From Candidatus Nitrospira kreftii (lineage in GTDB: Bacteria; Nitrospirota; Nitrospiria; Nitrospirales; Nitrospiraceae): a stretch of 64,000 nucleotides of DNA. The position numbers were made by a program, and so were the translations under genes. Positions 10,076 to 56,837 of the stretch are shown piece after piece (position 1 is the stretch's first letter; each line of letters starts with the position of its first letter). Below the pieces are notes generated by a model that saw nothing but the letters and a program-made list of their open reading frames with translations, was not told where the DNA came from and searched no databases. The stretch covers positions 124,001-188,000 of the forward strand of contig CP047423.1 of assembly GCA_014058405.1 (NCBI GenBank). Reading direction: 5' to 3'.

Positions 10076-11473
10076 ATGTTCAGGCCGATTCCAGAAACTA
10101 CCGTCTTCCGAAGGATTCCCTATCGGCTGATCGCATCCGTCCTTTTGATTCTGGCCCTGGTTGTCTCCGTCATTCTGCTCTTCAGTCTGGAACGCGACAA
10201 ACTTCTCCTGGAGGGTTTCAGCGAGGGCAAGAGGATTCCGACGGAACTATTTCCGGCTCTGTGGCAATCGCGAAGCGACCTAGTCGTCGTGACGCTTCTT
10301 GTATTCTTGGTGAGTGCGATCGGAATTGCGGCAGTCATCACGTTTCTGCACTACGACAGTACGCGTCGCACACTTGAGGAGGTGAAGGGATTAGCGCGCA
10401 ATATCTTGCAGAGTATCCCGACCGGCGTCTTGACTCTGAACCGATCCGGAGTGATCACCGCCGTCAATCCCATGGCAGAGGCCGTGCTGAAACGCTCAGG
10501 GACAGACCTGTTGGGTCACTCCTATGAATCGGTCTTTACGGAAGGAGATACCATCCGTGGAGCACTGGATGAAGCGCTACACACACATGAGTACTCGAAA
10601 CAGAAGGATGTACCCTACGGAACTCACGATGGGATCGTTCACAGCATCCGCATCGGTACTGCCGAATTGACTGGAGATGACGGACAACCAGCAGGCGTCA
10701 TCTTGCAAGCTCAGGATGTCACGGAATGGCTGGTGCTCGAACGGCGCGTGCTCGTTGCGGAGAAACTCGCCGCGCTGCATACCTTGTCCGCCGGCGTCGC
10801 GCATGAACTACGGAATCCGCTGAGCGCGATGGATTTGAACCTGCATCTGCTTGATGAAACATTGAAAGAAGGGGGTGGGCTGGCGCAGGACGTGGCGCAC
10901 TATCTTCAAGTCGTGAACGCCGAATGTCGACGCCTCTCCGTGATTTTGGATAACTTCATGAAGTTTGCGCGTCCCACCTCAATGGGTCTCCATGACGTGG
11001 ACTTGCGAACGGTCATCGCACACATCATGGCACTCATGCAATTCGAGGCCCAAGAGCGGAAGATCCAACTGGAGGAACGAGTTGAAGAAGCATTACCTCC
11101 AGTGTTTGGAGACGAGACACAAATCAGCCAGGTCCTGGTGAACATCATGGTCAACGCATTCCAAGCCATGCCGGACGGTGGACGGTGTTCCATCATCACG
11201 CAGGTTCAGAGGAATGCCGACGCTCGCTGGGTGGAAGTCGTGGTGTCGGATACAGGCGTTGGAATCAAGAAGGACGATCTGTCGCACCTATTCGAGCCCT
11301 TTTACACCACCAAAGCTGGCGGAACAGGCCTCGGCCTTGCTATTGCCTATCGAATCATGCAGGACCACGGCGGCGCCATTCGCGTTTCTAGCGTATTCGG
11401 CGTCGGGACCACCGTGGTCGTGCAACTCCCCGTAGGAGCCACGTCGCTTGAGAAGCTTGAGGTAGGTTCATGA
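10076..11473 (+). CDS. Sensor histidine kinase (NtrB-like, PAS domain)
   Basis: Membrane histidine kinase of 465 residues. Two transmembrane helices (about 18-37 and 69-91) enclose a very short periplasmic loop. A PAS domain spans about 105-220. HisKA carries the phospho-His in AHELRNPLS (His243). The ATPase domain shows the N box (NIMVNAFQAM), DTGVGI, and GGTGLGLAI. The stop overlaps the start of the response regulator by 4 bp (ATGA), so the two form a pair. The input signal is unknown; the small loop suggests sensing within the membrane or cytoplasm. Confidence 0.9.
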   Translation: MFRPIPETTVFRRIPYRLIASVLLILALVVSVILLFSLERDKLLLEGFSEGKRIPTELFPALWQSRSDLVVVTLLVFLVSAIGIAAVITFLHYDSTRRTLEEVKGLARNILQSIPTGVLTLNRSGVITAVNPMAEAVLKRSGTDLLGHSYESVFTEGDTIRGALDEALHTHEYSKQKDVPYGTHDGIVHSIRIGTAELTGDDGQPAGVILQAQDVTEWLVLERRVLVAEKLAALHTLSAGVAHELRNPLSAMDLNLHLLDETLKEGGGLAQDVAHYLQVVNAECRRLSVILDNFMKFARPTSMGLHDVDLRTVIAHIMALMQFEAQERKIQLEERVEEALPPVFGDETQISQVLVNIMVNAFQAMPDGGRCSIITQVQRNADARWVEVVVSDTGVGIKKDDLSHLFEPFYTTKAGGTGLGLAIAYRIMQDHGGAIRVSSVFGVGTTVVVQLPVGATSLEKLEVGS

Positions 11474-12828
11474 CCAACCCCGCGAAGATCCTCATTGTTG
11501 ACGACGAGGTGAACATTCGCAACGCGCTGGTGACCCTCCTGGAAAGGAAGGGATATCGGGCCCGAGGCGTGGCGACGGCGGAAGAAGGGTTGGATCTGCT
11601 TGAAACGACCGGGATGGATCTGGTGATTACCGACTTGCGCATGCCGGGAATCAGCGGGATGGAATTTCTGCGGAGACTGCAGACGAAATGGCCCGGCACG
11701 GAAGTGATGGTTATGACAGCCTATGGCTCCATCGAAACCGCCGTGGAGGCGATGCGTGCCGGAGCCTACGATTATCTCACCAAGCCCATCGATCGCGAGC
11801 GGTTCCCCATCATGGTGGAGAAAGCGCTCGAACGACACCGTCTCTCCATCGAAAACCAGCGGCTCCGAGATCGACTCGAAACGAGAACACGTTTCGAGCA
11901 AATGGTCGGCGAAAGCGAGGCCATGCAGCGGATCTACGGCCTTGTGGAGATGGTGGCATCCAGCGATGTGACCGTCTTGCTCACAGGCGAAAGCGGAACC
12001 GGCAAGGAACCTGTCGCCCGAGCCATACACCACAAAAGCCTGAGGGCCGATGGGCCGTTTATTACCCTGAATTGCGGGGCATTACCTGACGCGCTCTTCG
12101 AGAGCGAGTTGTTCGGCTATGAGAAAGGCGCCTTCACCGGCGCGATGACGACCAAGGCCGGACGGTTCGAGCTGGCCGACGGCGGCACGTTGTTGCTCGA
12201 TGAAGTGGGTGAACTCTCACTGAAATCTCAAGTCGATTTTTTGCGCGTGCTGGAAACCAAGGAGTTCAGGCGCCTGGGTGGAACCAAGCTGATTACGGTC
12301 GATGCCCGCATCATCGCCGCCACCAATCGCAATCTTGAGGAAGCGGTCAAACAGGGCGCGTTTCGCGAGGATCTCTTTTATCGACTCAATGTCGTCCCCA
12401 TTCAATTGCCGCCACTGCGCGAACGTGGTGATGATATTCCCCTCCTCGTTGAAACGCTCCTACCAGAATTGTGCGCGCAGCATCAACGCGCGTCAAAGGA
12501 GGTCTCACGAGAAGCTATGAGACTCTTACGGCTGTACGCCTGGCCGGGAAATATCCGACAACTCCGCAATCTCCTCGAACGACTGGTTGTGACCGTACGT
12601 GAGGGGATGATCCTGCCCCAGCATTTGCCGGAGGAGATTCAGGCCAGCCAGGAAGATGTTCGAACCATGGTCGTCACCCTCGGAAATCCTCTGGAAGACA
12701 TTGAGAAAGAAGTGATCCGACGGACGCTTGTCGAAGTCACCAACCACCGCGAGAAAGCCGCCAAGCTGCTCGGTATCAGCCTGCGGTCTCTCCAGTACAA
12801 GATCAAAGAATACGGGATCCGCGAGTAA
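11470..12828 (+). CDS. Sigma-54-dependent response regulator (NtrC family)
   Basis: Three-domain activator of 452 residues: receiver with phospho-Asp55 (VITDLRMPG), AAA+ domain with Walker [10 protein letters not shown] (173-181) and the sigma-54 contact loop GAFTGA (220-225), Walker [15 protein letters not shown], and a Fis-type helix-turn-helix at the C-terminus ([19 protein letters not shown]). The Walker A helix has Pro181 where Leu is usual in NtrC proteins. A candidate sigma-54 promoter with an upstream palindrome occurs at 32.7-32.9 kb in this window, though nothing proves that it is a target. Confidence 0.92.
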
Positions 12829-13182: not shown

Positions 13183-13506
13183 ATGATTGTTGTGTCGCCG
13201 ATCACAAGGGGTGGAGTCGTCCTCGTCCTCTTATTGATGAACGGCTGTGGGCAACCGCCCGCCCAGCAACGTGAAGCAGCTCAGAAGGCGGTCGACGATG
13301 CCAACACTGCGGAGGCGGAGACCTATGCGAAGGATGATTGAATCAAATTAGAGCAAGAGTTCACCCTGGCCAAGGATGAGTTGGCCAAGCAAGAGATGGT
13401 CTTCCCAATGTTCAGATTGTATGACGACGTGAGGGACATACTGAGCACGGTAGTCGATTGTGGGGGCACGTGGCAACCAAGGCGTCGCACAACAAAGACG
13501 TGCGCC
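13183..13506 (+). pseudogene. Broken lipoprotein gene (DUF4398-like)
   Basis: ATG 13183 starts a lipoprotein signal (GGVVLVLLLMNGCGQPP) followed by a helical region AAQKAVDDANTAEAETYAKDD. A TGA at 13339-13341 stops it where an alanine/lysine-rich coiled coil should continue. The same frame then reads KLEQEFTLAKDELAKQEM, plainly coding. A +1/-1 shift near 13460 is needed to recover GHVATKASHNKDV. The rest of the gene is absent. One nonsense codon, one frameshift and a lost 3' end make it a pseudogene. DUF4398 assignment is from general resemblance. Confidence 0.7.
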
Positions 13507-13606
13507 TGACCGGTACGCAAATTCGAGCGAGTGAACCCACTACCGACCTAGTGATCGTGAAGACGGGCAGGAGAAGGAACGGTCGGAATACGTGAGGAGG
13601 GTGGTC

Positions 13607-13903
13607 ATGAGCGTGGGATCAACAAGGGAACCCGTACTATCTCCTCAATCGCCGAAGGAGGACTGGCTTGTCCAGCTCGCTCGGCTGCAAGCACTGCTGA
13701 CAGCCTGCCCCAGTGATCTCCTTTCGCGATGCGAACTGGCCGCACTCCTTGAAACGATGGACCTGTACGAAGAGGCCTGGGTTCACTGGAAAGCGGTCAT
13801 CGATCTTGATTCGAACCATCTCAACGCACGGGAAGGGCTCGTTCGTTGTCATCAGAAGACGTGGCGTCATCGTACAACCCACACAGTGAGAAGGAGCGTA
13901 TGA
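13607..13903 (+). CDS. TPR-like small protein
   Basis: 98-residue soluble protein. The middle (LLSRCELAALLETMDLYEEAWVHWKAVIDLD) has the alternating small and aromatic residues of about two tetratricopeptide repeats. ATG 13607 has the better ribosome site (GAGGAGGG) than GTG 13592. Its stop overlaps the next start (ATGA at 13900), so the two are translationally coupled. Likely a protein-binding helper; the partner is unknown. Confidence 0.6.
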   Translation: MSVGSTREPVLSPQSPKEDWLVQLARLQALLTACPSDLLSRCELAALLETMDLYEEAWVHWKAVIDLDSNHLNAREGLVRCHQKTWRHRTTHTVRRSV

Positions 13904-14181
13904 CCACGATCTGGGGCCGCCTCGAACAGATTGCCGAGGGTCGGTGCGTTCAAGTCAGAGCGGCCATGCCGGGAAATGCGGCGATCCTCATTCGCATCAT
14001 CATCGGTAACCAGACGCGTATCGCGAGAGGAGTCGAGCAGGTGCCTCTTGCCAATCTTCGCGAAGGAGAGTTCGTGGGAGTCACCTTCCGCGCGGCATGC
14101 ACAGGTCTTGTGAACGCCGACACAATCTATGCCCAACCAGAATTCGTGATGAGTGAGGCGAAATCCCCGTCCTCAGTGTGA
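13900..14181 (+). CDS. Hypothetical small beta-rich protein
   Basis: 93 residues, not recognised. The sequence alternates hydrophobic strands (AILIRIIIGN, GEFVGVTFRAACTGLV) with charged turns, like a small OB- or SH3-type barrel. It starts on the overlapping ATGA of the TPR-like gene, with AAGGAG ahead. No membrane segment or metal motif is seen. Confidence 0.6.
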   Translation: MTTIWGRLEQIAEGRCVQVRAAMPGNAAILIRIIIGNQTRIARGVEQVPLANLREGEFVGVTFRAACTGLVNADTIYAQPEFVMSEAKSPSSV

Positions 14182-14506: not shown

Positions 14507-14785
14507 ATGTCAGGACATGCGGACATCGTCGTGGTGCAGTTGCCGAGAGGGGCCACGGCGATGGTGTGGATGGACCTAGCCACGGGCACTGTGGCGACCA
14601 GCCATGCCGGACTACAGGTGACGCTGCGGCGGGGTGTCAAAAATTGGGCCGGTCATCTTGTGCTTCCACAAGACGGATCGAACTTCCTGTCCGCCGTGTA
14701 TGACCATTTCTTTCTCAACGGGTACCCCGTCCAGTGGCTCAGGCTCTCAGGTCTGAAAAAGGTTCAACGTATCTATCGTGTCTAG
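14507..14785 (+). CDS. Hypothetical protein before the KorA-like gene
   Basis: 92 residues, not recognised. Mixed alpha/beta composition with a GYPVQWLRLSGLKK end and no export signal. Its stop overlaps the start of the next gene by 8 bp, which suggests that the two are coupled. It follows the small basic peptide by 2 bp. Function unknown. Confidence 0.6.
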   Translation: MSGHADIVVVQLPRGATAMVWMDLATGTVATSHAGLQVTLRRGVKNWAGHLVLPQDGSNFLSAVYDHFFLNGYPVQWLRLSGLKKVQRIYRV

Positions 14786-16280
14786 AACGGAACCAATCAG
14801 TATGGCACCATTGACGAGTTGGCTACCAGTGCGCTCCCATCAAGAATTCGATCTCGTCGTCAAGATTGTAGGCGCTCCCGCATCAGGGCTCGCACAAGGC
14901 TGGACCCCGATCGCCCAGGCGTTGGTCCGACAAGGGCTGTCGGTCATGAGCCAAACGGGACGGCTCAACGGAAAAGTCGGTAAATGTGTCCTCAGTATCC
15001 GTCTCGCGACCAGGCCGTTCAGTTCGATGGGCCATGGATGCGACGTCCTGGTGTACTTGGGCAAGAAGGCCTCAGAGTATGGGCGTGTCGGACTCCAGCC
15101 GGGCAGTCTCCTCCTGTGGGATCCGCCGTCCGATCAGCAATCATTTTCGGGGCTGCCCAACGGCGTGGTGGCCTATCCGGTTCCCTTTCAGGCCCTTTCG
15201 ATTCAGAGTGGGGAGAGATTCGAAGGCAAAGGGTTTGCTGCGCTGGGCGTGCTCTTCCACTTGCTCGGTGTGTCGGCGGGCACGCTGGATCAATGGACGG
15301 CGTCGGTCGCGGCGCCGCGATCATTTGCATCGGGTGTAGCGTTTGCTCGTGATGAACTCGAGAAGCACGACCCCTATGCCCTTCCGTCGATCGAACCCAA
15401 CGGCCGGAGCGGCGTGCTCCTGAGGTGCGAACACGCCATCCTCTTGGGATATGCGGTGAGTGTGTGCGAGTGCCGGACCGGATGCGAGACCGATCTCGTG
15501 ACGTCGCCGGCGCGATGGACCGCGCACCATCTGAGACTTGCCGAATCCATGGTCTCCCTCCTGAAGAGCGACGGGTATCCCGGTATGCAGATCTATCGAG
15601 GCCTGCAAGGAAAGGTCCTGACGGTGCTCCGAGGGAACGAGTCCGCGATGGCCGCGTGCCTCAAGGCTGTTACGACGCCAAGAATCTTTGTGGCAACCGA
15701 TGTTCCGGACATTATCCGTCTGGTCAAGGCAGGACACGAGCTGATTCGCAACGGATTGAGCGATGGTGTCGGAGTACTGATCGAGGAGGACCTCGCCTCC
15801 CGTCAGCACAGCATCGATACCTGGACCCTGGCTGATTGGATCAGACCCCAGCACAGTGTGGAGCCGGATCGCGATGGATGTGTTCCGTCCGAGACGCACG
15901 ATACCATGATCGAGCGGGATGAGGGAGACGCTGAGGCGGACATTGGATTCGTCGCCTGGGGAATGGCGCAGGGAGTGGTGCGAGATGCGGTGGCGCTCTG
16001 CCGAAGTTTTGGGCTCAACGTCGCGGGACTGTATCCGAGACAGATTGTGCCGTTCTGCCACGATGACCTCGAGTCCTTTGCCAGAACCGTCCGTCGGGTC
16101 GTCCTTGTCGAATCGGGCCAGACACCGAGCTCGTGGAACTGCCTACGCCCTTCATTCTCGTTCGACTACGGGACACTGACACCGCCGCAAGGTCAGCCCC
16201 TGACACCGATGGATATTTTCCTTCGCGAGGGATTGGGCGCCGTAGAAACCACAGAGACACAACCCAGAGGAAAGGAGTAA
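14778..16280 (+). CDS. Divergent 2-oxoacid:acceptor oxidoreductase alpha-like (KorA-like) protein
   Basis: 500-residue protein with the layout of a gamma-alpha fused KorA. Residues about 25-190 resemble the gamma domain (KIVGAPASGLAQGWTPIAQA). The end resembles the alpha transketolase-C region (IGFVAWGMAQGVVRDAVALC, FARTVRRVVLVESG). The middle is poorly conserved, and the usual YPITP-type alpha motif is missing. No TPP-binding beta subunit lies nearby. It may be a non-catalytic or regulatory relative, or part of an unusual complex with the CdhB-like product 5 bp downstream. GTG start; ATG 14802 is possible. Confidence 0.6.
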   Translation: MSRTEPISMAPLTSWLPVRSHQEFDLVVKIVGAPASGLAQGWTPIAQALVRQGLSVMSQTGRLNGKVGKCVLSIRLATRPFSSMGHGCDVLVYLGKKASEYGRVGLQPGSLLLWDPPSDQQSFSGLPNGVVAYPVPFQALSIQSGERFEGKGFAALGVLFHLLGVSAGTLDQWTASVAAPRSFASGVAFARDELEKHDPYALPSIEPNGRSGVLLRCEHAILLGYAVSVCECRTGCETDLVTSPARWTAHHLRLAESMVSLLKSDGYPGMQIYRGLQGKVLTVLRGNESAMAACLKAVTTPRIFVATDVPDIIRLVKAGHELIRNGLSDGVGVLIEEDLASRQHSIDTWTLADWIRPQHSVEPDRDGCVPSETHDTMIERDEGDAEADIGFVAWGMAQGVVRDAVALCRSFGLNVAGLYPRQIVPFCHDDLESFARTVRRVVLVESGQTPSSWNCLRPSFSFDYGTLTPPQGQPLTPMDIFLREGLGAVETTETQPRGKE

Positions 16281-16285
16281 TCAGA

Positions 16286-16864
16286 ATGGAACCATATGAA
16301 ATGACGGTGGGGCCTGAGGGATATCTTCCCCCCTCCGTTTCGGAACGCGGCGTGATCGGTCCCTCGAAAGGCGAGGGGCTTGTGCTGGGGAAACGGGTGC
16401 CGGAGCAGCAGGCGATTGATGAAGCAGCGCGCCGGCTCCTTCACGCGAAGAATCCGACCATATTCCCCGATCCTCTGGTGCTGTGGGCATGGAACGAACA
16501 GGCGGTTCGGGAGTCGATCGTCATCAAGGCCCTAGCGGACGCCGTTCCGGCCAAACTCATCCCCATGGCGGACTACCGTCCCAAATATCCCAAGATCGTG
16601 GCTGAAAAAGAAATCAATCCAAACCATCCGAATCTCACGATCTGGAAAAACAAGATCGATGTCTGTTTCTTCGTCGGCGTCCACTGCCATCAATCCAATA
16701 TCGCCCTCAAGATCATTCGTGGCGGTACGGATTGTTTCACGATCGCGCTCTGTACCTTCAGCGGCGACGACGAGGCGCATCTCACGATTCGTGACTTGAC
16801 CGCCGATACGATTCAGCGCATCACAGATTCGGTGTATCGTCAAAAAGGAACTCGCCCATCGTAG
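16286..16864 (+). CDS. CdhB-like (CO dehydrogenase beta/epsilon-type) protein
   Basis: 192 residues. The core (PLVLWAWNEQAVRESIVIKALADAV, KIDVCFFVGVHCHQSNIALKIIRGG) resembles the nucleotide-binding-like CdhB/ACDS epsilon family, often annotated as carbon monoxide dehydrogenase beta subunit family. No CO dehydrogenase catalytic gene is present. It may instead serve as an accessory (epsilon-type) subunit of a 2-oxoacid oxidoreductase, which fits its place right after the KorA-like gene. ATG 16286 follows AAAGGAG. Family assignment is moderate. Confidence 0.55.
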   Translation: MEPYEMTVGPEGYLPPSVSERGVIGPSKGEGLVLGKRVPEQQAIDEAARRLLHAKNPTIFPDPLVLWAWNEQAVRESIVIKALADAVPAKLIPMADYRPKYPKIVAEKEINPNHPNLTIWKNKIDVCFFVGVHCHQSNIALKIIRGGTDCFTIALCTFSGDDEAHLTIRDLTADTIQRITDSVYRQKGTRPS

Positions 16865-16906: not shown

Positions 16907-17845
16907 ATGACGTGTCGTCGCTGGCTCTCTGCAACCCTGTTCACTGTTACGCTGGTAAGTACGTTGTCCGTCTGGGCCTATGAAGAAACCACAGTGTCGG
17001 ACGGTGGAGCGCTCACAGGATCGGTGAAGCTAACCGGCCTCGTGCCGAAGCCCAAAGGCTACAACCTGACCACCTTGCCGGATCCCTTCTACTGCGGACG
17101 TATTTCTGATGGACAAGGCTGGCGCATCCTGCAGCCGTTTAATGTGGGACCGGCGGGAGAGTTTCGGGAGGTTGTGGTCTATCTGGAGGGCATCGACAAG
17201 GGCAAACCCTTCGACGAAAGAGCTGTGCCGCAGATTGAAGCGAGAGACTGCCTGTTTCTGCCGTTCACGACCATTGTGCGGGACCATCAACCAGTCACGG
17301 TGGTCAACATGGATCCGGTCATGCACGACATCCAAGCCTATGAGACATCACAGTTGGGTGCGCGCGTCCTCTTCAACGTCCCGCTCCCGATGAATCCACA
17401 ACATCCGCGTAACTTTAAGGATCGCAGCGAGGCCGCGCTGTATCACAAGCACATGGCCGGGGCGCCGATGAAAGAATTGGTCACGCTCAGCAAAGACCGC
17501 CGGATCTTCGTGATGCAATGTGGTTTCCATGCGTACATGGAGAGTTGGGGTGTGTCGGTCAGGAATCCATACTTTGCCAAGACGGATGAGCGGGGGCGGT
17601 TTACAATCACCGATGTGCCCCCCGGCACCTACAAACTGGTGGTGTGGCATCCGTACATCCGCACGGTCAACGAGCACACCGTCACGATTGCGCCGAAGGG
17701 AACCACGGAGGCGATGCTCGTGGTCCCGGCTCCGACCGGGCGGCTGTATGCCAACGAGGTGTTGGAACATGACTACGTGCGGTATGGCGTGACCGAGGAG
17801 CAGAAAAAAGAGATCGAGCCGATGATCCACAAACAAGAACACTAA
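16907..17845 (+). CDS. Secreted protein with cupredoxin-like and carboxypeptidase-regulatory-like domains
   Basis: 312 residues with a signal peptide ending SVWAYEE. A first beta domain has potential metal ligands His (VMHDIQAYE), Cys and His (FVMQCGFHAYMESWG). It is followed by a short carboxypeptidase-regulatory-like repeat (TDERGRFTITDVPPGTYKLVVWH). Such proteins are common in periplasmic respiratory gene sets and may bind copper, but no function is proven. ATG 16907 is preceded by GAGGAG. It follows the CdhB-like gene. Confidence 0.7.
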   Translation: MTCRRWLSATLFTVTLVSTLSVWAYEETTVSDGGALTGSVKLTGLVPKPKGYNLTTLPDPFYCGRISDGQGWRILQPFNVGPAGEFREVVVYLEGIDKGKPFDERAVPQIEARDCLFLPFTTIVRDHQPVTVVNMDPVMHDIQAYETSQLGARVLFNVPLPMNPQHPRNFKDRSEAALYHKHMAGAPMKELVTLSKDRRIFVMQCGFHAYMESWGVSVRNPYFAKTDERGRFTITDVPPGTYKLVVWHPYIRTVNEHTVTIAPKGTTEAMLVVPAPTGRLYANEVLEHDYVRYGVTEEQKKEIEPMIHKQEH

Positions 17846-18235: not shown

Positions 18236-20263
18236 ATGCTGAATCTGTTGTGGATTCTTCTCGGCGGGTATGTGGCCGGGATACTACTCCCGCTCTGTCT
18301 CCCCCGACAGCCCAACGCTCACATTATCACGACCACCGCCCCCGCTATCGTGGCAACCAGCGCAGGCGTCGTTCTGGGGCTTCTCGGCCTCACGTCTTTG
18401 GAACCCGTCACGGGATCGCTCGCCTCCACTATCCCTCTGCTCACCTTCGCCATTCGGATTGATCCACTGGCGGCATTCTTCGTGTTGACCATCTCCCTCG
18501 CCGGTCTCGCCGCGTCGATCTATGCCATTGGATACATGCGGCATTTTGACGGGCGCGCATCGCTCCCGATGCTCGGATCACTCTTCAATGGGTTTCTGTG
18601 TTCCATGACCTTGGTCGTGCTCGCGGACAACGGCTTCTTTTTTCTCATCGTCTGGGAACTCATGTCGTTGCTGTCCTATTTCCTCGTTGTCACGGAGCAT
18701 GAGAAAGCCGAGGTGCGGTATGCAGGTTTGTTCTACCTGATCATGACCCATGTGGGAACTGCCTTCATCCTCCTGACCTTCCTCATTTTCTTCCAAGCAG
18801 GCGGGTCGTTCGCATTCGACGCCTTCCGACAGTCGGAGCAGCCCTTGTCGGAGAGCATGAAAACGATCGCGTTTCTGCTGGCCTTGATCGGCTTCGGCAC
18901 GAAGGCCGGCATCGTGCCGCTCCATGTCTGGCTGCCCTATGCGCATCCCGCGGCGCCGTCGCATATTTCAGCCTTAATGTCCGGCGTCATGATCAAGACC
19001 GCGATCTATGCCCTGATCCGGGTGTATTTCGATTTCCTCGGCGGCCAGTTTCCCTGGTGGTGGGGCTTCGTGATCCTTGTGATCGGCGCAGTGTCTGCGT
19101 TACTCGGCGTGATGTACGCGTTGATGGAACATGATCTGAAAAGCTTACTGGCCTACCACAGTGTTGAGAACATCGGTATCATTCTGTTGGGGATCGGGGC
19201 TGGGATGATCTTTCAGACCTACGGGCTCAAGGAGTTTGCCGCGCTGGGCCTGCTGGCCGGACTCTACCATACGATCAACCACGCCATGTTCAAAGCCCTG
19301 TTGTTCCTGGGGGCCGGTTCGCTACTCTATGCCACGCACACACGCAACATGGAAGAATACGGAGGCCTCCTCCGGCGCATGCCATGGACCGGTGCCTGTT
19401 TCTTAATCGGCTCGGTGTCGATTGTCGCCCTCCCACCGACCAACGGATTTGTCAGCGAGTGGCTAGTCTTTCAAAGCCTCTTTCTCAGCTTTCACATTCC
19501 CGACACCTTCCTGAAGCTGATGCTCCCCCTTGCAGCGGCGATGCTGGCCCTGACCGGAGCGCTCGCCTTGGCCTGCTTCGCAAAAGCGTTCGGGATTTCC
19601 TTTCTTGCCCTGCCACGGAGCACGCACGCCCGACACGCGGAAGAGGTGCCGATTTCCATGCGCATCGGAATGGCCCTCTTGGCTGCGGTCTGTGTCGCTC
19701 TTGGTCTCGGACCGATGGTGGTCGTGCCGCTACTGGACCGAGTGGTCACGCCGCTCACGGGCGTGTCGATCGAAGGACAGGTGCTGGCTCTTGACGGTTG
19801 GGCACTAGCCACGGTGAACGTGGAATTTTCCAGTCTTTCGCCGCCGGTCCTTGCCCTGCTGTTGGGAGGGCTTGCCGTGCTTGGGCTCGGAATCGTGGCG
19901 GCCTTCGGCGGGCTCGCAAAGAAGCGCTATTACAAAACATGGGGCTGCGGCATCAACCTGACGCCCCGTATGGAATATACCGCGACCGGATTTGTGCAGC
20001 CGATCAAGCGAGTGTTCAGCTCGATTTACCAACCGACCGTGAAGCTCGAGACGGAATTTCTCCACGAGTCACAGTATTTCGCCAGGCGACGACGCTTTGA
20101 ATTTCACGTTGAACCGGTCTTTCAGAAATATCTGTATGATCCGGTGCTTGCGTTCGTTGCCGCCCTAGCTGGACGTCTGCGGGTCATCCAGGCGGGAAGC
20201 CTGCACCTTTATTTGACCTACATCTTTGTCACGTTGATTGCTTTGTTATTGTTTGCCGTGTAA
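18236..20263 (+). CDS. hyfB: HyfB-like proton-pumping antiporter subunit
   Basis: Membrane subunit of 675 residues with about 14-16 helices, of the NuoL/HyfB/MrpA family. Conserved ion-path features include the discontinuous-helix region with WELMSLLSYFLV (Glu), GTKAGIVPLHVWLPYAHPAAP (Lys and His), and the HSVENIGIILLGIG stretch. It starts the six-gene hyfBCEFGI cluster and ends 4 bp before hyfC. It is expected to move protons or sodium, coupled to electron transfer by the hydrophilic subunits HyfG and HyfI. Confidence 0.85.
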   Translation: MLNLLWILLGGYVAGILLPLCLPRQPNAHIITTTAPAIVATSAGVVLGLLGLTSLEPVTGSLASTIPLLTFAIRIDPLAAFFVLTISLAGLAASIYAIGYMRHFDGRASLPMLGSLFNGFLCSMTLVVLADNGFFFLIVWELMSLLSYFLVVTEHEKAEVRYAGLFYLIMTHVGTAFILLTFLIFFQAGGSFAFDAFRQSEQPLSESMKTIAFLLALIGFGTKAGIVPLHVWLPYAHPAAPSHISALMSGVMIKTAIYALIRVYFDFLGGQFPWWWGFVILVIGAVSALLGVMYALMEHDLKSLLAYHSVENIGIILLGIGAGMIFQTYGLKEFAALGLLAGLYHTINHAMFKALLFLGAGSLLYATHTRNMEEYGGLLRRMPWTGACFLIGSVSIVALPPTNGFVSEWLVFQSLFLSFHIPDTFLKLMLPLAAAMLALTGALALACFAKAFGISFLALPRSTHARHAEEVPISMRIGMALLAAVCVALGLGPMVVVPLLDRVVTPLTGVSIEGQVLALDGWALATVNVEFSSLSPPVLALLLGGLAVLGLGIVAAFGGLAKKRYYKTWGCGINLTPRMEYTATGFVQPIKRVFSSIYQPTVKLETEFLHESQYFARRRRFEFHVEPVFQKYLYDPVLAFVAALAGRLRVIQAGSLHLYLTYIFVTLIALLLFAV

Positions 20264-20267
20264 GCCG

Positions 20268-21218
20268 ATGTTGGACGCCTTTCTTCTTATCGTCATGCAG
20301 ACCGTCGTCTTACTGGCGGCTGCTCCGCTGATCGTCGGCTTGATCAGGAAAGTGAAGGCCCGTCTGCAATGCCGGCGAGGGGCCTCCGTCGTTCAACCCT
20401 ATGCGGATCTCATCAAGCTCTTCCGCAAACAGCCGGTTGTCTCATCCACCACGTCGTGGATTTTCACCGCCACCCCCTACATCCTCTTTGCCTCAACGCT
20501 GGCGGCCGGGCTGCTCGTGCCGGTGTTCATATCCCGGACCCCGTTGAGCTTCGCAGGCAACATCATCGCCCTCGTCTACCTGCTGGCCTTGGGCACATTC
20601 TTCTTGATGCTGGCGGGTCTCGATGCTGGTTCGGCCTTTGGAGGAATGGGGAGCAGCCGCGAAGCGATTGTGGCGTCGTTGACCGAACCGGCCATGATGC
20701 TGTCGATCTTTGCGATCGCACTCACGGCAGGGTCTACGAATCTGAGCACCATCGTCCACAAGACGGCGTTACTCGAAGGCATTATGACTGATCCGTCACC
20801 TCATCTCATGGCGTTCGCCGCACTGGTTATCGTGGCCATTGCCGAAACAGGGCGAGTGCCGGTGGACAACCCAGCCACCCACCTCGAACTCACGATGATC
20901 CACGAAGCGATGATCTTGGAATATTCCGGGCGATATCTCGCGTTGGTCGAATGGGCGGCGGGACTCAAGCTCTTGGTATTTCTCACCTTGATCGCCAACG
21001 TCTTCGCTCCCTGGGGGATTGCCACCAGTATGGAGCCAGCCGCTCTTGGGGTCGGCCTGGCCGCCTATCTCGTGAAGGTCTCGGGATTGGCGGTATTGAT
21101 CGGCATCCTTGAATCGATGTTTGCCAAGTTGCGGCTATTCAGAGTGACGGACTTGCTGGGAGCCGCCTTTATCCTGGCGCTGCTCGGACTCGTCTTTTTC
21201 TACGTCTTGCGAGGCTGA
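20268..21218 (+). CDS. hyfC: HyfC-like (NuoH/HycD family) membrane subunit
   Basis: 316 residues, about eight helices, related to NuoH, HycD and EchB, which form the junction between the hydrophilic and membrane arms. The family motifs RRGASVVQPYADLIKLFRK and AIAETGRVPVDNPATHLELT are intact, including the acidic HLELTMIHEAMILEYSGR loop. ATG 20268 follows hyfB by 4 bp. These loops normally form the quinone-cavity side facing HyfG and HyfI. Confidence 0.9.
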   Translation: MLDAFLLIVMQTVVLLAAAPLIVGLIRKVKARLQCRRGASVVQPYADLIKLFRKQPVVSSTTSWIFTATPYILFASTLAAGLLVPVFISRTPLSFAGNIIALVYLLALGTFFLMLAGLDAGSAFGGMGSSREAIVASLTEPAMMLSIFAIALTAGSTNLSTIVHKTALLEGIMTDPSPHLMAFAALVIVAIAETGRVPVDNPATHLELTMIHEAMILEYSGRYLALVEWAAGLKLLVFLTLIANVFAPWGIATSMEPAALGVGLAAYLVKVSGLAVLIGILESMFAKLRLFRVTDLLGAAFILALLGLVFFYVLRG

Positions 21219-21219
21219 C

Positions 21220-21888
21220 GTGCCGCTGATGATCTCACCCATCGGATCACAATTGGTGGATTTGGGGTCGGCCCTGTTGTTGCTGACCTGCTTTGCGATC
21301 GTGGCGCAGCGACGGCTGTCGGCCTGTGTCGATCTGTTTGCTCTGCAATCGGTTTTCCTGGCGCTCACCGCGACGCTCGTCGCATTCCTGACGGGGATTC
21401 ACCACATTTACATCGCCGCCGCACTGACCATCGTCATCAAGGCGATCGTCATCCCCCGGATCTTAAAGAAGGTGATCGAGCGACTCAATGTCTCGCGTGA
21501 ACTGGTGATGCATATCAATGTGCCGGCCAGCCTGCTCATCAGCGGCATGCTGGTCATGGTCGCCTTCCTAATTACGCAGCCGATCATTCCGTTTGGCCAC
21601 CTGCTGACCCGGGATTCGCTGGCCATTGCGCTGGCGATCGTGCTGATCGGGTTCTTCACGATGATCGCGCGCCAGAAGGCCGTCACGCAAATGATCGCGT
21701 TTCTGGTCATGGAAAATGGCCTCTTCTTAGGAGCCACCGCTGCGACCTATGGCATGCCGCTGATCGTGGAATTAGGCGTGTTCTTCGATGTATTGGTCGC
21801 AGCCTTGATCGCAGGCATCTACACGAATCGGCTACAAGATGCCTTTGATAGTGTGGATACCGCCCACCTCAGCGAGTTGAAGGAATGA
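21220..21888 (+). CDS. hyfE: HyfE-like membrane subunit
   Basis: 222 residues, about seven helices, similar to HyfE, a MnhC/NuoK-like subunit fused to extra helices. Features: a central VIKAIVIPRILKKVIERLN loop and MENGLFLGATAATYGMPL, where the Glu aligns with the NuoK-type ion-channel acid. GTG 21220 lies 1 bp after hyfC; ATG 21229 is an alternative. Its stop overlaps the hyfF start by 4 bp. Confidence 0.85.
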   Translation: MPLMISPIGSQLVDLGSALLLLTCFAIVAQRRLSACVDLFALQSVFLALTATLVAFLTGIHHIYIAAALTIVIKAIVIPRILKKVIERLNVSRELVMHINVPASLLISGMLVMVAFLITQPIIPFGHLLTRDSLAIALAIVLIGFFTMIARQKAVTQMIAFLVMENGLFLGATAATYGMPLIVELGVFFDVLVAALIAGIYTNRLQDAFDSVDTAHLSELKE

Positions 21889-23399
21889 GCGATTTACCCA
21901 CGACGCTTGCCGTCAGCCTACTCCTGCTCGCGCCGCTGCTAGCCGGTGGGCTCAGCCTGCTGCTGTCCAACTCGCGCTGGCTGCATGTGACGAATTTGAC
22001 CAGCATCGGAACTCTGGTTGCCGCAGAGGTCATGATCGCGCAATCTGTCTTGGGGCAAGGCTCGCTCACGGCGTTCGGTGAGATTATTTACATCGACGCC
22101 CTCTCGTCGGTCATTCTGTTCATTATCGGGACGGTCGGCCTCGCCTGTTCCCTCTATATGCGGTCGTATATGGATGAACAAGTCGCCCGCGGCGTCATCG
22201 CCCCTCAACGCCTCAATCTGTTTTTCTTTCTCTTTCACATGTTCCTGCTGACCATGGTCGTCGCGACCATCGCTAATAGCTTAGGCGTGCAATGGGTGGC
22301 GATCGAGGCCACGACGCTGACAACGACGTTTCTCATTGCGTTCTGGCAGAGGCGCGAATCGTTGGAAGCCGGCTGGAAATATCTCATCCTCTGTTCCGTC
22401 GGAATCTCTCTGGCTTTGTTTGGAGTTGTGCTGATGTATTACTCCTCCCTGCGCGTACTGGGAGATGTCAGTTCGGCCCTCAATATCACTGAACTCCAGA
22501 AGGTGGCCGATCAGCTGGACCCCCACATTCTGAAATTGGCCTTCGTGTTTCTGTTTGTCGGTTATGGCACAAAAGTCGGACTCGTACCGATGCACAGCTG
22601 GCTGCCCGATGCCTACACGGAAGCGCCGGCACCAGTCGCGGCCATGTTGGCGGGCGTGCTGGAAACCGTGGCGGTCTATGCCATTTTGAGATGCCGGAGT
22701 ATTGTCGACCACGCCGTGACTCCTGATTTTACCGGCGGTCTCTTAGCCGTGTTCGGACTCGTGTCATTCGTACTCGCGGCGTTCTTTATCCTCCTGCAAC
22801 ACAATTATAAACGCCTCTTTGCCTACTCCAGCATTGAGCATATGGGCTTGGCGATGGTTGGATTCGGGGTCGGCGGGCCGATTGGAAATTTTGGCGGCCT
22901 GTTCCACCTGGTCAATCATGCCGTGGCCAAATCGCTCGCCTTCTTTGCGGCAGGCAATATCCACCGCCGGTTCAAGACAGTCGAGATCGATGAGGTCCGC
23001 GGCCTCACGACCGTCCTGCCCTTATCCGCGCTGGCGCTGCTCATTGCTGGACTGGCGCTGGCGGCACTCCCCCCCTTTGCGCTCTTCGCAAGTGAACTGC
23101 AGATCATCACGGCGCTGGGATCGGCGGGCCTCCCAAGTGAATGGGCTCAGTCAAATACAGGATTTCCCATCGTGGTTTTCCTGTTTTGCAGTCTGGTTGC
23201 CTTCGGTGGTCTTCTCTATCGCATCACTGGCGTGGTCTGGGGCGAAGCTCCCAAAGACATCGTCCAGGGAGAGCAGTGGTCTGTGGGACATGTTCCACTC
23301 ATTCTCCTGGGAGCCGTGCTCGTGGGATTCTGCTGGGCTCTGCCGCCTCCGTTGCAGCAACTCTTTGAGGCCGCCGCAACCCTGTTGGTCAACCACTAG
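21885..23399 (+). CDS. hyfF: HyfF-like antiporter subunit
   Basis: 504 residues, about 13-14 helices, of the NuoN/NuoM/HyfF family. Conserved sites include the Glu in WVAIEATTLTTTFLI, GTKVGLVPMHSWLPDAYTEAPAP, and SSIEHMGLAMVGFG. With HyfB this gives two antiporter-like subunits; no third (HyfD) gene is present in the cluster. ATG 21885 overlaps the end of hyfE. Confidence 0.88.
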   Translation: MSDLPTTLAVSLLLLAPLLAGGLSLLLSNSRWLHVTNLTSIGTLVAAEVMIAQSVLGQGSLTAFGEIIYIDALSSVILFIIGTVGLACSLYMRSYMDEQVARGVIAPQRLNLFFFLFHMFLLTMVVATIANSLGVQWVAIEATTLTTTFLIAFWQRRESLEAGWKYLILCSVGISLALFGVVLMYYSSLRVLGDVSSALNITELQKVADQLDPHILKLAFVFLFVGYGTKVGLVPMHSWLPDAYTEAPAPVAAMLAGVLETVAVYAILRCRSIVDHAVTPDFTGGLLAVFGLVSFVLAAFFILLQHNYKRLFAYSSIEHMGLAMVGFGVGGPIGNFGGLFHLVNHAVAKSLAFFAAGNIHRRFKTVEIDEVRGLTTVLPLSALALLIAGLALAALPPFALFASELQIITALGSAGLPSEWAQSNTGFPIVVFLFCSLVAFGGLLYRITGVVWGEAPKDIVQGEQWSVGHVPLILLGAVLVGFCWALPPPLQQLFEAAATLLVNH

Positions 23400-23412: not shown

Positions 23413-25011
23413 GTGACAAACAGTCCATCGCCTGATCGATCGATTGAACAGCAGATACAGACCGTTTTCCCCAGCTTGATTCCAGATTACCCCTCACGCA
23501 CCACTCTGGTGCGGTATCGCACCGACGCACTCCAACTCCCGGGACTCGTCCGGTTGCTCCATGAGAAGCTGCAGGGCCGCCTGGCTCTGCTGTTCGCGGT
23601 GGATTGCCGACCGCTGGAGAAAAAGTACGAGTTACAGTACCTATTCGCGCTCAAGTCCCGCCAACCGTTTGTGCTCGTGACCACCGAGCTGAATGGAGAC
23701 GACCGGCTGTTCACGTCAATCACGCCGTCGATTCACGCCGCGCAATGGTATGAACGTGAGATTCGTGATCTCTTCGGCTTGATCCCACAAGGCCATCCGG
23801 ATCTCCGTCGTCTGGTCCGACACGAGCATTGGCCGAAGGGAACCCATCCGTTACAGAAGGACTTTTCGTGGAACCACGTCTTGAAACGGCAACAAGGCGA
23901 CTACCGGTTCCACCATATTGAAGGGGAAGGGGTCTTCGAAGTCCCGGTCGGCCCAATTCACGCCGGGATCATCGAGCCAGGACATTTCCGGTTTTCCGTA
24001 GCCGGTGAGCCCATCATGCAACTGGAAGTGCGCCACTTCTGGAAACACCGTGGCGTGGAAAAGCTGTTCGAGCAACTCACGCTGATCGACGCGGTGCTCC
24101 TGGCGGAACGCGTGTCCGGGGACACGACCATCGGGCACAGTCTGGCCTATTGCCAAGCGGTGGAAACGCTCCTGCATCTCAACGTTCCACGACGAGCCAG
24201 GTACCTCCGTTCGCTCTTTCTAGAACTGGAGCGACTGTATAATCACCTCGGGGATATCGGCGCGATGTGTAACGACACGGCCTATGCGCTCGCCCATGCC
24301 CATTGTGGTCGGATGAAGGAGCGGGTCATGCAACTCAATGACCGGCTGGTTGGCTCGCGCTTTCTGCGAGGCGTCATGCAGGTCGGGGGAGTCAGTTGGG
24401 ACATCGATCGCAGCCAACTCAGCAACATCGTTCAAGAGCTCAACGGCATCCAGAAGGACTTCTCCGAAGTGGGCGCCATCATCTTTGCCAATGCCTCCCT
24501 TACGGATCGGCTTGAGACCACAGGGGTTCTCACTGAAAGGATTGCTTGGGATCACGCTGTGACCGGAGTGGTCGGGCGGGCGTCGGGGATGGATCAGGAT
24601 GTCCGACGAGATCGCCCCTTCGCCGCGTATGACGAACTGCCCGTGAACGTGGCGCTGTATCGCTATGGCGACGTACGGGCGAGATTGCGCGTCCGGGGCG
24701 ATGAGATCCACGAATCCATCCGGCTCATTCGCGAGATTCAGGCGCGGATTCCGGATGGTCCGATAGCGGTTAAACCCGACCGATCGGCGTCTCCTGGAAC
24801 CTGGGCAGTCGCGGCTGTGGAAGGGTGGCGAGGCGAAATTCTCTATTTCGTATCGGCGGGAGATGATGGAATGATTCATCGTTGCAAAGTCCGCGATCCT
24901 TCATTCGTCAATTGGCCTGCTATGCAATGGGCTGTGTTAGGGAACATCATTCCTGATTTTCCACTCATCAACAAGAGTTTCAATCTGTCCTATGCGGGCA
25001 ATGACCTCTGA
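23413..25011 (+). CDS. hyfG: HyfG-like large subunit (NuoC-NuoD fusion) without Ni-Fe ligands
   Basis: 532-residue soluble subunit. The NuoC-like part spans about 1-165 (WYEREIRDLFGLIPQGHPDL), the NuoD/hydrogenase-large part about 175-532. In Ni-Fe hydrogenases the metal is held by RxCGxC and DPCxxC. Here those sites read ERVSGDTTIGH (232-241) and VRDPSFVNW (DPS at 495-497), so all four cysteines are absent. The protein therefore cannot hold a Ni-Fe center and the complex is not a hydrogenase. GTG 23413 follows GGAGGG. Confidence 0.9.
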   Translation: MTNSPSPDRSIEQQIQTVFPSLIPDYPSRTTLVRYRTDALQLPGLVRLLHEKLQGRLALLFAVDCRPLEKKYELQYLFALKSRQPFVLVTTELNGDDRLFTSITPSIHAAQWYEREIRDLFGLIPQGHPDLRRLVRHEHWPKGTHPLQKDFSWNHVLKRQQGDYRFHHIEGEGVFEVPVGPIHAGIIEPGHFRFSVAGEPIMQLEVRHFWKHRGVEKLFEQLTLIDAVLLAERVSGDTTIGHSLAYCQAVETLLHLNVPRRARYLRSLFLELERLYNHLGDIGAMCNDTAYALAHAHCGRMKERVMQLNDRLVGSRFLRGVMQVGGVSWDIDRSQLSNIVQELNGIQKDFSEVGAIIFANASLTDRLETTGVLTERIAWDHAVTGVVGRASGMDQDVRRDRPFAAYDELPVNVALYRYGDVRARLRVRGDEIHESIRLIREIQARIPDGPIAVKPDRSASPGTWAVAAVEGWRGEILYFVSAGDDGMIHRCKVRDPSFVNWPAMQWAVLGNIIPDFPLINKSFNLSYAGNDL

Positions 25012-25025: not shown

Positions 25026-25535
25026 ATGTTTCGGATCATCAAAAAAAGCCTGAAGACGGGCGTCGTCACCGGACAATATCCAGAATCTGAAAGGCCCTCG
25101 GAACCAATCAATCCGGCTGTGACGAAAAGGGCTAAGACCTTTCGGCGCTCGCTCGCAATCCGGGAGGTCGATACCGGCTCCTGCAATGCCTGTGAGATGG
25201 AAATGAACGCGCTCCTGAATCCTGTGTACGACGCCGAGCGGTTCGGCATTCACATCGCAGCCTCGCCGCGTCACGCTGATGCCTTGGTGGTGACGGGACC
25301 GGTCACCGTTAACATGGAGCGGGCGTTGAAAGATGTGCACAAGCAAACGCCTGATCCGAAGATTGTGATTGCGCTCGGTGACTGCGCAATCAACTGTGGC
25401 ATGTTCAAAGGTAGTTATGCCGTGACAGGACCCGTGGAACGGCACATCCCTGTTGATGTCCGTATCCCCGGTTGTCCGCCACGCCCAGCGGAAATCCTCA
25501 AGGCCCTGTCTGAACTTCGCACGCGAAGGGCATGA
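25026..25535 (+). CDS. hyfI: HyfI-like small subunit (NuoB/EchC family)
   Basis: 169-residue subunit that holds the terminal iron-sulfur cluster (N2-like). All four ligand cysteines are present: C53 and C56 (TGSCNACEME), C120 (ALGDCAINCG) and C150 (RIPGCPPRPAEIL). The first 30 residues (FRIIKKSLKTGVVTGQYPE) resemble the N-terminus common to HyfH/EchF-like ferredoxin subunits, without the ferredoxin part. No separate HyfH/NuoI gene exists in the cluster. Thus the electron entry route differs from that of a full Hyf complex. Confidence 0.88.
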   Translation: MFRIIKKSLKTGVVTGQYPESERPSEPINPAVTKRAKTFRRSLAIREVDTGSCNACEMEMNALLNPVYDAERFGIHIAASPRHADALVVTGPVTVNMERALKDVHKQTPDPKIVIALGDCAINCGMFKGSYAVTGPVERHIPVDVRIPGCPPRPAEILKALSELRTRRA

Positions 25536-33598: not shown

Positions 33599-34516
33599 AT
33601 GCGATCCGTCCGTTTTCATGGTCGAGGGGGCCAGGGTGCTAAGACTGCGAGCCGCATTCTGGGTACCGCTGCATTCCTCGAAGGATGTGTGGCGCAGGAC
33701 TCGCCGATATATGGAGCCGAACGGCGTGGTGCCCCGGTGTCGGCATTTACGCGCATTGCGAAGGACCCGATCCGTGAGCGGGGGATCATCACCCGTCCCG
33801 ATCTTGTAGTCGTAGCCGACGTGACGCTCATCGGCGATCCAGCCGCGCGGGTGCTCGACGGGATCGATGAACGGACGGCAGTGTTTGTCAACTCACCCTT
33901 ATCCGCCGAGCAAATCCGTGCCGAGACTTCCCTCCCTGGTCGCTTGACCATATTGGACCTCACTGAGATTGCGCTTCAGCGGTTTGGTAAACGGGAAGCA
34001 ATCAGTTCATTGCTCGGCGCTGTCGCGGGACGACTTGTGGGGCTCCATCAGGAGTCGATCCGTAAAGCCATTGCAGAAGAGTTGGCTGATCTCGGTCTTT
34101 CGCCTTCGGTCATTGAGCGCAATCAAACGGTCGCGGTCCAATCTTATGAAGCAGTTCAGCCCGTCGTGATCGAAACAGGTGTGCCGCAGCCGATCGTCCC
34201 GGTACAGCTCCAAGCGCCGATGTATGAATCACCGACCAGAGGAACTGCCAGGATCAGCGCCGCCGCAAATTCGATTCTGCGTGAAACCGGAGGCTGGCGA
34301 ACATTCCGGCCGGTGCTGGTTCCCGACAAGTGTAATGGATGTTGGCTCTGCTTTACCTCTTGTCCCGATGGAGTGATATCGATGACGAAGGAAGATCGGC
34401 CCGTGATCGATTACGACCATTGCAAAGGTTGTCAAATCTGCGTCCATGAGTGTCCAACGGAGGCGCTTGTGGCCGAGCGGGAGCAGGGAGGACCGGTGGC
34501 ATGGAAGGCGAGATGA
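33599..34516 (+). CDS. 2-oxoacid:ferredoxin oxidoreductase gamma-delta fusion
   Basis: 305 residues. The gamma domain (about 1-185) begins with RFHGRGGQGAKTASRILG, the CoA/TPP-side motif, and contains QDSPIYGAERRGAPVSAF. The C-terminal delta part holds two [4Fe-4S] motifs, CNGCWLCFTSCP (from 245) and CKGCQICVHECP (from 275). It forms the enzyme with the alpha and beta genes just downstream: 2-oxoacid + CoA + oxidised ferredoxin to acyl-CoA, CO2 and reduced ferredoxin. The substrate (pyruvate or another 2-oxoacid) is not certain. Confidence 0.9.
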   Translation: MRSVRFHGRGGQGAKTASRILGTAAFLEGCVAQDSPIYGAERRGAPVSAFTRIAKDPIRERGIITRPDLVVVADVTLIGDPAARVLDGIDERTAVFVNSPLSAEQIRAETSLPGRLTILDLTEIALQRFGKREAISSLLGAVAGRLVGLHQESIRKAIAEELADLGLSPSVIERNQTVAVQSYEAVQPVVIETGVPQPIVPVQLQAPMYESPTRGTARISAAANSILRETGGWRTFRPVLVPDKCNGCWLCFTSCPDGVISMTKEDRPVIDYDHCKGCQICVHECPTEALVAEREQGGPVAWKAR

Positions 34517-35730
34517 TGACAGGAAATCTAGCGGCCGCCTGGGGCGCGCGTCTGGCCGATGTCGATTATGTCCCGGCCTTTCCCATCACCCCGCAAACGG
34601 AAATCGTGGAAGCGTTGGCCAAGTGGTGTGAGAGCGGCACGATGGCCGCGCGATTTGTCACCCTGGATTCCGAGCATTCCATGATGACGGCGGCCGGAGC
34701 CGCCGCAGCTACGGGAGCTCGGGTCTTCACCGCGACATCGAGTCAGGGATTGCTCTATGCTCTCGAAGTGCTCTATTCCGTCTCCGGCTGGCGCACACCG
34801 CTTGTGCTGGTCAATGTGTCGCGGGCGCTGGCTGCGCCGATCACACTGGAACCTGATCACAATGATGTGCTGGCCGCGCGCGATTCGGGATTTCTCCAAA
34901 TCCACGCAGAGACCTGTCAGGAAGTGCTGGACTCGATCCTCATGGCCTATCGCATTGCGGAGGATGAGCGGGTGATGTTGCCGGTCATCGTCAATCTGGA
35001 CGGTTTCTATCTTTCATTCACCCGCGAGCCGGTCATCCTGCCGGACCCAGGGCAGATCAAGCGGTTTCTGCCACCATTTCGACCGGCTCATCTGGGGTTC
35101 AGAGCTTCGGCGCCGCATGCGCTCGGCGTGGCGGTCCTCGGCGGGACGCCCTACTCATACTTCCGGTACCAAATGCATCTGGCTGCCATGAACGCGTTGG
35201 ACGTGCATCGGGAAGCGGCCGCGGCATTCGAGCAGTTGTTCGGACGGCGGTACGATGTGGTCGAGGGCTATCGGCTTGACGATGCGGAAGATGTGCTCGT
35301 CATGACCAACGCCTTTGCGAGCAAAGGCAAGGTCGCAGTCGATGTGGCCAGGGCAGATGGCAAGCGAGTGGGACTGTTGCGGCTCCGCATGATCCGTCCC
35401 TGGCCGGCGGACACCATCCGTCAGGCGTTGCAGGGCCGCCGGGCCGTGGCAGTATTGGATCAGAATCTGTCTCCAGGCCAGGGTGGGATTCTCTTTCAGG
35501 AGATTGCGGCTTGTCTCTATCACGACCCGCTGCGACCACGGGCACTCTGTTCTTTCATCGGCGGCCTGGGCGGAAAGAATATTTCTGAGGGGGAGTTTCG
35601 CGCCATCTTCGAGCAGACGGCAGAAGCGGGAGTCCGTGGCACAGGGATCGGCCCAGTCCTGCTGTACACAGAAGCCGAGCATCGGGAGATGGTGCAGTTG
35701 CAGGTTTTAGCAGGAGAACCTGGGTCGTGA
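34501..35730 (+). CDS. 2-oxoacid:ferredoxin oxidoreductase alpha subunit
   Basis: 409-residue alpha subunit. It has the canonical YVPAFPITPQTEIVEAL motif, the EHSMMTAAGAAAATGARVFTATSSQGL block, and a C-terminal domain for CoA/TPP contact (GKVAVDVARADGKRVGLLRLRMIRPWP). ATG 34501 or 34513 (ATGA overlap with the gamma-delta stop) are equally plausible starts. It pairs with the TPP-binding beta subunit at 35785. The layout is that of the VOR/POR class. Confidence 0.9.
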   Translation: MEGEMMTGNLAAAWGARLADVDYVPAFPITPQTEIVEALAKWCESGTMAARFVTLDSEHSMMTAAGAAAATGARVFTATSSQGLLYALEVLYSVSGWRTPLVLVNVSRALAAPITLEPDHNDVLAARDSGFLQIHAETCQEVLDSILMAYRIAEDERVMLPVIVNLDGFYLSFTREPVILPDPGQIKRFLPPFRPAHLGFRASAPHALGVAVLGGTPYSYFRYQMHLAAMNALDVHREAAAAFEQLFGRRYDVVEGYRLDDAEDVLVMTNAFASKGKVAVDVARADGKRVGLLRLRMIRPWPADTIRQALQGRRAVAVLDQNLSPGQGGILFQEIAACLYHDPLRPRALCSFIGGLGGKNISEGEFRAIFEQTAEAGVRGTGIGPVLLYTEAEHREMVQLQVLAGEPGS

Positions 35731-35784
35731 AACATCGTTCGTATCTCCTCGCTCGTTTTCGGTCTTGCGAGATACGCTTCATGA

Positions 35785-41181: not shown

Positions 41182-44775
<3,594 letters not shown>

Positions 44776-56584: not shown

Positions 56585-56837
56585 ACCGCTTGGCGAGATT
56601 CGCGTGGTCCAAGATTTTCTTCCTTCTCCATCCGAATTGGCTTTTCGCGAAGAAGGCGTGAAGGTCACGTTGGCGTTGAGCAAGAAGAGCGTCGAATTCT
56701 TCAAAGCTGAGGCATCTCGGCACCATACGCAGTATCAGCGCATGATTCGTCGGCTTCTCGATGCGTACGTCGATACGCAATCTCACTCGCTAACTCGACG
56801 AGCAGCCCAGACTACTCGTAAACGGGCAGTCGGTTAG
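56556..56837 (+). CDS. brnA: BrnA-family antitoxin
   Basis: 93 residues with a C-terminal ribbon-helix-helix (KVTLALSKKSVEFFKAEASR, YQRMIRRLLDAYV), the DNA-binding and dimer unit of CopG-like BrnA. It neutralises BrnT and represses the pair. Overlap with the toxin gene implies translational coupling. ATG 56556. Confidence 0.82.
   Translation: MSTKIKYTDEPLGEIRVVQDFLPSPSELAFREEGVKVTLALSKKSVEFFKAEASRHHTQYQRMIRRLLDAYVDTQSHSLTRRAAQTTRKRAVG

Follow-up and report, generated by a model that had tools for sequence, protein, structure and literature searches.

The genes at positions 14507–16864 of the window, that is, of the whole 64-kb stretch analysed here (C1:124001-188000 of a 4.13-Mb single-contig genome), constitute, as judged from sequence, a degenerate, non-catalytic part of a 2-oxoacid:ferredoxin oxidoreductase (OFOR) operon whose complete form, in other families of the class, also encodes the membrane-bound energy-converting hydrogenase-related complex (Ehr). 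We put at roughly 0.5 the probability that these remains of an Ehr-encoded OFOR now act as a non-catalytic adaptor that links Ehr with the POR and OGOR of the cell. A sequence-only reading had singled out three adjacent genes, encoding a KorA-like protein, a small protein and a CdhB-like protein. All three are present, in an order that recurs among orthologues of eight genera, but the unit is larger than three genes: an upstream two-component system, the downstream Ehr complex and, in most relatives, a further delta gene also belong to it. The features concerned are as follows.

10076..11473, + strand: sensor histidine kinase (HK), first gene of the block, present upstream in all relatives with contigs extending to this point
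11470..12828, + strand: NtrC-like response regulator (RR) with an AAA+ domain, at the same conserved position
13494..13532, + strand: probable delta1 remnant, KDVRLTGTQIRAS (syntenic tblastn match of E 0.002-0.003, weak by itself)
13592..13903, + strand: 'x', a small TPR-like protein, in conserved order; its counterpart in the L160 OFOR–Ehr operon is a TPR protein
13846..14181, + strand: 'y', a small protein conserved in part of the relatives, with no Pfam match
14507..14785, + strand: small alpha/beta protein of 92 aa, 5′ of gamma-alpha in all relatives read
14778..16280, + strand: predicted non-catalytic gamma-alpha (KorA-type) OFOR subunit of 500 aa (Pfam, PDB profile search, AF2 model with fold search, motif alignment)
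16286..16864, + strand: delta2 ('CdhB-like'), 192 aa, third paralogue of the five-subunit POR/OGOR delta (PF02552, paralogues in two OFOR operons, tree)
16907..17845, + strand: CpD, secreted protein with a carboxypeptidase-regulatory-like domain (Pfam), at a conserved place between delta2 and HyfB
18236..20263, + strand: HyfB, antiporter-like subunit of Ehr/Hyf (NCBIfam NF005086, 6e-227)
20268..21218, + strand: HyfC, NuoH-like subunit of Ehr/Hyf (NCBIfam)
21220..21888, + strand: HyfE, Ehr/Hyf subunit, named by analogy (position and conservation)
21885..23399, + strand: HyfF, antiporter-like subunit of Ehr/Hyf (NCBIfam)
23413..25011, + strand, start approximate: HyfG/NuoCD-like large subunit of Ehr without [NiFe] ligands (NCBIfam, sequence)
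25026..25535, + strand: HyfI (NuoB-like) small subunit of Ehr, with cluster cysteines 53, 56, 120 and 150 (sequence)
33599..36726, + strand: separate, apparently complete POR outside the module, comprising a gamma subunit fused to a 2[4Fe-4S] ferredoxin, an alpha subunit and a TPP beta subunit (Pfam)

The start codon of gamma-alpha is GTG, and a conserved ATG lies at 14802. The likely start of delta2 is the ATG at 16286, 5 bp past the gamma-alpha stop and preceded by a Shine-Dalgarno-like GAAAGGAG. The gene for delta1, the second member of the CO_dh family, is intact upstream of x in most relatives; longer delta1 remnants are seen in the sister genome (L038), and the 13-residue match in the window is probably also what is left of this gene. 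The small protein is present in 42 of the 175 family genomes, with homologues next to Ehr (L164) and next to delta2 (L166); its model has no convincing PDB match (best Z 4.3), which by itself does not establish a new fold. Promoter searches gave no sigma-70-like site, and no sigma-54-type site was seen near the module. Elsewhere in the window, an IS630-like transposase occupies 57277-58362, with a HigA-like small DNA-binding protein and a partner ORF, recognized by eye, just before it (56556-57174), and the minus strand at 60120-62879 encodes a 919-aa protein of the ADP-forming acyl-CoA ligase type fused to a GNAT acetyltransferase domain.

By its sequence and predicted structure, gamma-alpha is a non-catalytic OFOR subunit of the KorA type that has kept its fold. 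Pfam assigned PFOR_II to residues 387-448 (4.4e-6) and, weakly, POR (0.0089); the TPP domain, POR_N, had no match. Profile and fold searches both returned PDB entry 6n2n, KorA of the M. marinus OGOR, and the AF2 model (mean pLDDT 74.5) aligns with 6n2n_A at a VIA-align Z of 23.5 (411 aligned, rmsd 3.7), with the gamma-I-II fold kept. Domain order and fold are thus common to gamma-alpha and to KorA of the two-subunit OFORs (M. marinus OGOR, 6N2N; S. tokodaii OFOR, 5B46), whereas the window protein has a shortened domain I and lacks YPITP, the TPP Glu, the substrate Arg and an accompanying KorB gene. YPITP is missing from all 21 aligned orthologues; comparison with seven KorA sequences places at its position a stretch that includes the invariant cysteines C230 and C236. 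The stretches holding the TPP Glu and substrate Arg, matched to StOFOR E294 and R344 by motif and not by direct alignment, are deleted in the window protein and in seven orthologues aligned with KorA. In the S. tokodaii enzyme, this Glu binds the pyrimidine N1′ and this Arg the carboxylate, and changes in YPITP or of the Arg leave the enzyme inactive or much less active (PMC5020499). With these motifs, about 43 residues of domain I are gone, which bears out the earlier description of an 'eroded middle' and of something other than a normal oxidoreductase operon: gamma-alpha would be unable to serve as a working alpha subunit.

The CdhB-like gene, delta2, is not a CO-dehydrogenase piece. On the evidence of family membership and phylogeny, it is paralogous to the delta subunit of five-subunit POR/OGOR, as the third such copy in the genome, and aligns clearly with it: CO_dh (PF02552) matches along its length at 1.2e-36. 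The genome has three strong PF02552 matches, of which two lie inside complete five-subunit OFOR operons (L025, beta-gamma-epsilon-delta-alpha; L026, delta-alpha-beta-gamma-epsilon), whereas delta2 stands apart from any alpha, beta, gamma, epsilon set. The delta subunits of Aquifex POR and OGOR belong to the same family (PMC10052474), and those of Leptospirillum carry PF02552 (PMC2607301). The five-subunit enzymes of Aquificaceae and Nitrospira thus have a delta that is a clear paralogue of delta2; unlike theirs, the window gene is accompanied by a dead gamma-alpha and has no beta, separate gamma, alpha or epsilon. Leptospirillum ferriphilum likewise has two non-identical deltas, forD1 and forD2, off the OFOR operon, an arrangement called puzzling (PMC2607301). 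A tree of 42 deltas, which included no CODH epsilon sequence and should be read with some caution because of its long branches, joins delta1 to the operon A delta (100/100) and sets delta2 on the operon B side; row G037_d2 of this tree is a mis-read fragment and is to be ignored. A phmmer search with delta2 found no related PDB chain.

Downstream of CpD, the window shares with Nitrospirales Ehr, a group 4-like hydrogenase-related complex, the order HyfBCEFGI and the lack of [NiFe] ligands. HyfG contains no CxxC; RVSGDTTIG and RDPSFVNW stand where the CxxC motifs would be. Because the large subunit lacks these ligands and the small subunit retains its cluster cysteines, electron transfer without hydrogen chemistry is plausible. 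No ferredoxin subunit is visible in the window Ehr. HyfF is single here and duplicated in the Ehr clusters of L068, L071, L073, L082 and L160, reminiscent of 2M complex I. About half of Nitrospirales genomes encode Ehr (PMC12342949), to which no function has been assigned (PMC12342949, PMC10284858). In contrast to the Ehr of the literature, which has no confirmed partner, the complex described here is preceded by an OFOR-derived module and, in other families, by a whole OFOR. In formate hydrogenlyase and the proposed FDH–Ehr (PMC6349859), too, a soluble catalytic module is encoded together with a membrane module resembling complex I; here the soluble module is an OFOR and not a formate dehydrogenase, and in the window it would be non-catalytic.

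The origin of the module is indicated by complete operons in two other families of the class, in which KorA with YPITP, KorB with the TPP-binding GDG motif and two deltas are followed by Ehr. In L160 the order is delta1-x-KorA-KorB-delta2-HyfB-C-E-F-F′-G-I, with HK/RR divergent; L162/L163 match this order up to the contig end, and L164 reads x-KorA-KorB-delta1-delta2-small-HyfBCEFGI. A third family (L165, L166) holds HK, RR, delta1, a 145-160-aa protein consisting of KorA domain II only, and delta2 together. In a tree, gamma-alpha lies towards the Ehr-linked KorA sequences, with moderate support (86/86). Given this synteny and the tree, gamma-alpha corresponds to KorA in both position and sequence, and KorB has been lost. 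A beta gene therefore accompanies the pair in these other families, whereas none stands beside gamma-alpha in any family relative read. No report of OFOR–Ehr operons was found in the open-access literature.

Within the family (Nitrospira or Nitrospiraceae in GTDB records), gamma-alpha is matched in 25 of 175 genomes, 19 of 114 good genomes and 8 of 22 genera, two or three of the matches being remnants. A search of genome contigs with the single protein yielded no relatives, and one with the alignment yielded 19 loci; no relative was found on plasmids, and only ordinary KorA, with 23-41% identity over parts, was found beyond the family. Frameshifts were considered as the source of in-match stops in gamma-alpha and rejected at most loci, the stops being natural frame ends. 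The gene order is fixed among the relatives, with the small protein 5′ and delta2 3′ of gamma-alpha wherever readable: HK-RR-(delta1)-x-y-small-gammaalpha-delta2-CpD, followed in most by HyfB-C-E-F(-F′)-G-I. The Ehr large subunit occurs in 88 of the 175 family genomes, and Ehr is present in 15 of the 19 good genomes with gamma-alpha versus 48 of the 95 without it (Fisher p 0.025, kinship ignored). A link between gamma-alpha and Ehr drawn from this co-occurrence alone was judged too weak.

The accessory role that the sequence-only reading had suggested is the best interpretation of the module, and we propose the following form for it. Ancestrally, an OFOR would have been encoded with the membrane-bound Ehr. 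In Nitrospiraceae, KorB would have been lost, and KorA would survive beside the deltas as a shell without its residues for cofactor and substrate. Shell and deltas may now form a non-catalytic adaptor beside Ehr that docks the five-subunit POR and OGOR, enzymes with delta subunits similar to those of the module. Electrons driven by the proton-motive force would pass from the quinol pool to POR/OGOR for the reductive TCA cycle, or in the reverse direction. The adaptor reading draws on parts that are identified, catalytic residues that are lost, synteny with a complete operon and selection on the protein. The complete operons of L160, L162/L163 and L164 also have the same neighbours (HK/RR, x and small), and the domain-II-only proteins between two deltas in L165 and L166 have the character of intermediates. 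Also in its favour are the gene order conserved over eight genera, the higher frequency of Ehr among genomes with gamma-alpha (kinship ignored), the affinity of the two deltas to different five-subunit operons and an Ehr without [NiFe] ligands. Against it, no ferredoxin subunit can be seen in Ehr, most neighbours evolve more slowly than gamma-alpha, whose faster change resembles relaxed constraint, and delta1 is lost in the window and in the sister genome, whose delta2 also carries an in-frame stop. Moreover, Ehr often occurs without the module, and deletions restricted to gamma-alpha and delta2 are also common; Ehr therefore does not need the module.

Conversely, two genomes (G134 and G151, at 98-100% completeness) retain gamma-alpha and the two deltas and have no Ehr, which tells against an adaptor and is best fitted, among the rival explanations, by an OFOR modulator under a two-component system. 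A decoy gamma-alpha and extra deltas would then bind soluble POR/OGOR and alter their assembly, stability or activity, adjacency to Ehr being a matter of inheritance. HK/RR is always adjacent to the module, delta1 and delta2 resemble the deltas of two different OFORs, and the invariant C230 and C236 at the former YPITP place could be a redox switch. However, no decoy function is known for delta, and HK/RR also persists beside Ehr at loci without the module, which ties it to Ehr no less than to the module; overall, we regard such a modulator as unlikely, if worth keeping in view. At one locus (L066:3298-4600), a deletion scar joins a CpD fragment to a HyfI fragment; Ehr has been removed, and gamma-alpha and both deltas remain.

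Another rival explanation is a dying relic without function, being lost everywhere and surviving here by chance. Most family genomes lack the module, the window delta1 is reduced to a remnant, and deletions and stop codons form a series: the sister genome (L038) has an in-frame TAG in delta2, L044 a deletion that fuses gamma-alpha 1-50 to delta2 173-227, and L045 and L119 an eroded module. Further loci have lost the module, with small, CpD and Ehr remaining in L108 and L111 and only HK-RR-x-Ehr in L113 and L114. The rate of evolution of gamma-alpha can be read in the same way: between the window and the sister genome, dN/dS is 0.35 for gamma-alpha and 0.39 for x, compared with 0.09-0.16 for HyfB, HyfG, HK, RR, CpD and small. 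However, dN/dS of gamma-alpha lies at 0.27-0.40 in every one of the eight pairs tested, which indicates that the protein is selected, yet more loosely than most neighbours. In addition, 58 columns are invariant over the 21 orthologues, at identities to the window protein down to 37%, and frames and order are intact across eight genera. These observations make a functionless relic improbable.

It is very improbable that gamma-alpha belongs to a working OFOR that borrows its beta subunit in trans from another OFOR. The claim that a TPP beta subunit is lacking holds for the local cluster; it fails for the window, in which such sequences lie at 35785-36726, in the separate POR, and at 41182-44775, in a NifJ-type PFOR, and for the genome, whose two five-subunit operons hold beta. 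Several beta subunits are thus available, including that of an extra alpha-beta pair (L158). Yet the loss of YPITP in 21 of 21 orthologues, and of the TPP Glu, the substrate Arg and some 43 domain I residues in those aligned with KorA, speaks against catalysis, given the effect of point changes in YPITP or the Arg noted above. A search of TPP-domain matches (PF02775), part of which were read, gave three candidates for an orphan KorB, namely the duplicated L158 pair, a pair resembling decarboxylases (L021) and a gene like that of pyruvate dehydrogenase E1 (L176); all were rejected, none being KorB-like. The L158 pair (L158:5683-8027, minus strand; G000:C1 about 1023.7-1026.0 kb) is an orphan and a hybrid, with an alpha 86% like operon B, a beta 91% like operon A and no adjoining gamma, delta or epsilon seen. 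The separate POR is followed by a 130-aa ORF without a Pfam match (36753-37145), and the NifJ-type single-chain PFOR (1197 aa) by a dihydroorotate-dehydrogenase-like gene (44778-45791).

A piece of CO dehydrogenase/acetyl-CoA synthase, suggested by the Pfam name of PF02552 and by a 'CODH' reported as a neighbour of hyf in Ca. N. nitrosa (PMC5596200), is hardly credible, as PF02552 is a standard five-subunit OFOR delta (PMC10052474, PMC2607301), both other copies in the genome lie inside OFOR operons and PF02552 is present in each of the 114 good family genomes, usually in two copies. With the CdhB-like gene in the OFOR delta family, a CO dehydrogenase is not to be expected, and no CdhA/CooS or ACS partner was found among the annotated ORFs of the 64-kb window; the comammox 'CODH' is itself probably a delta gene of this kind.

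Returning to the adaptor reading, its wider form holds that the Nitrospiria Ehr supplies the membrane half for an energy-converting 2-oxoacid oxidoreductase, which would run reductive carboxylation on quinol and the proton-motive force or work in reverse, with the Nitrospiraceae OFOR as a dead adaptor whose two deltas load soluble POR and OGOR onto Ehr; we offer this only tentatively. The decay series from whole OFOR to dead gamma-alpha, to domain II only and to nothing provides testable intermediates, and the complete OFOR–Ehr operons of sister families would give Ehr a concrete redox partner. As the source of low-potential electrons for the reductive TCA cycle of nitrite oxidisers, 2M complex I has been proposed to act as the ferredoxin reducer (PMC6606698). 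If the wider form is true, the coupling of Ehr to POR and OGOR would be a direct path for low-potential electrons into nitrifier CO2 fixation.
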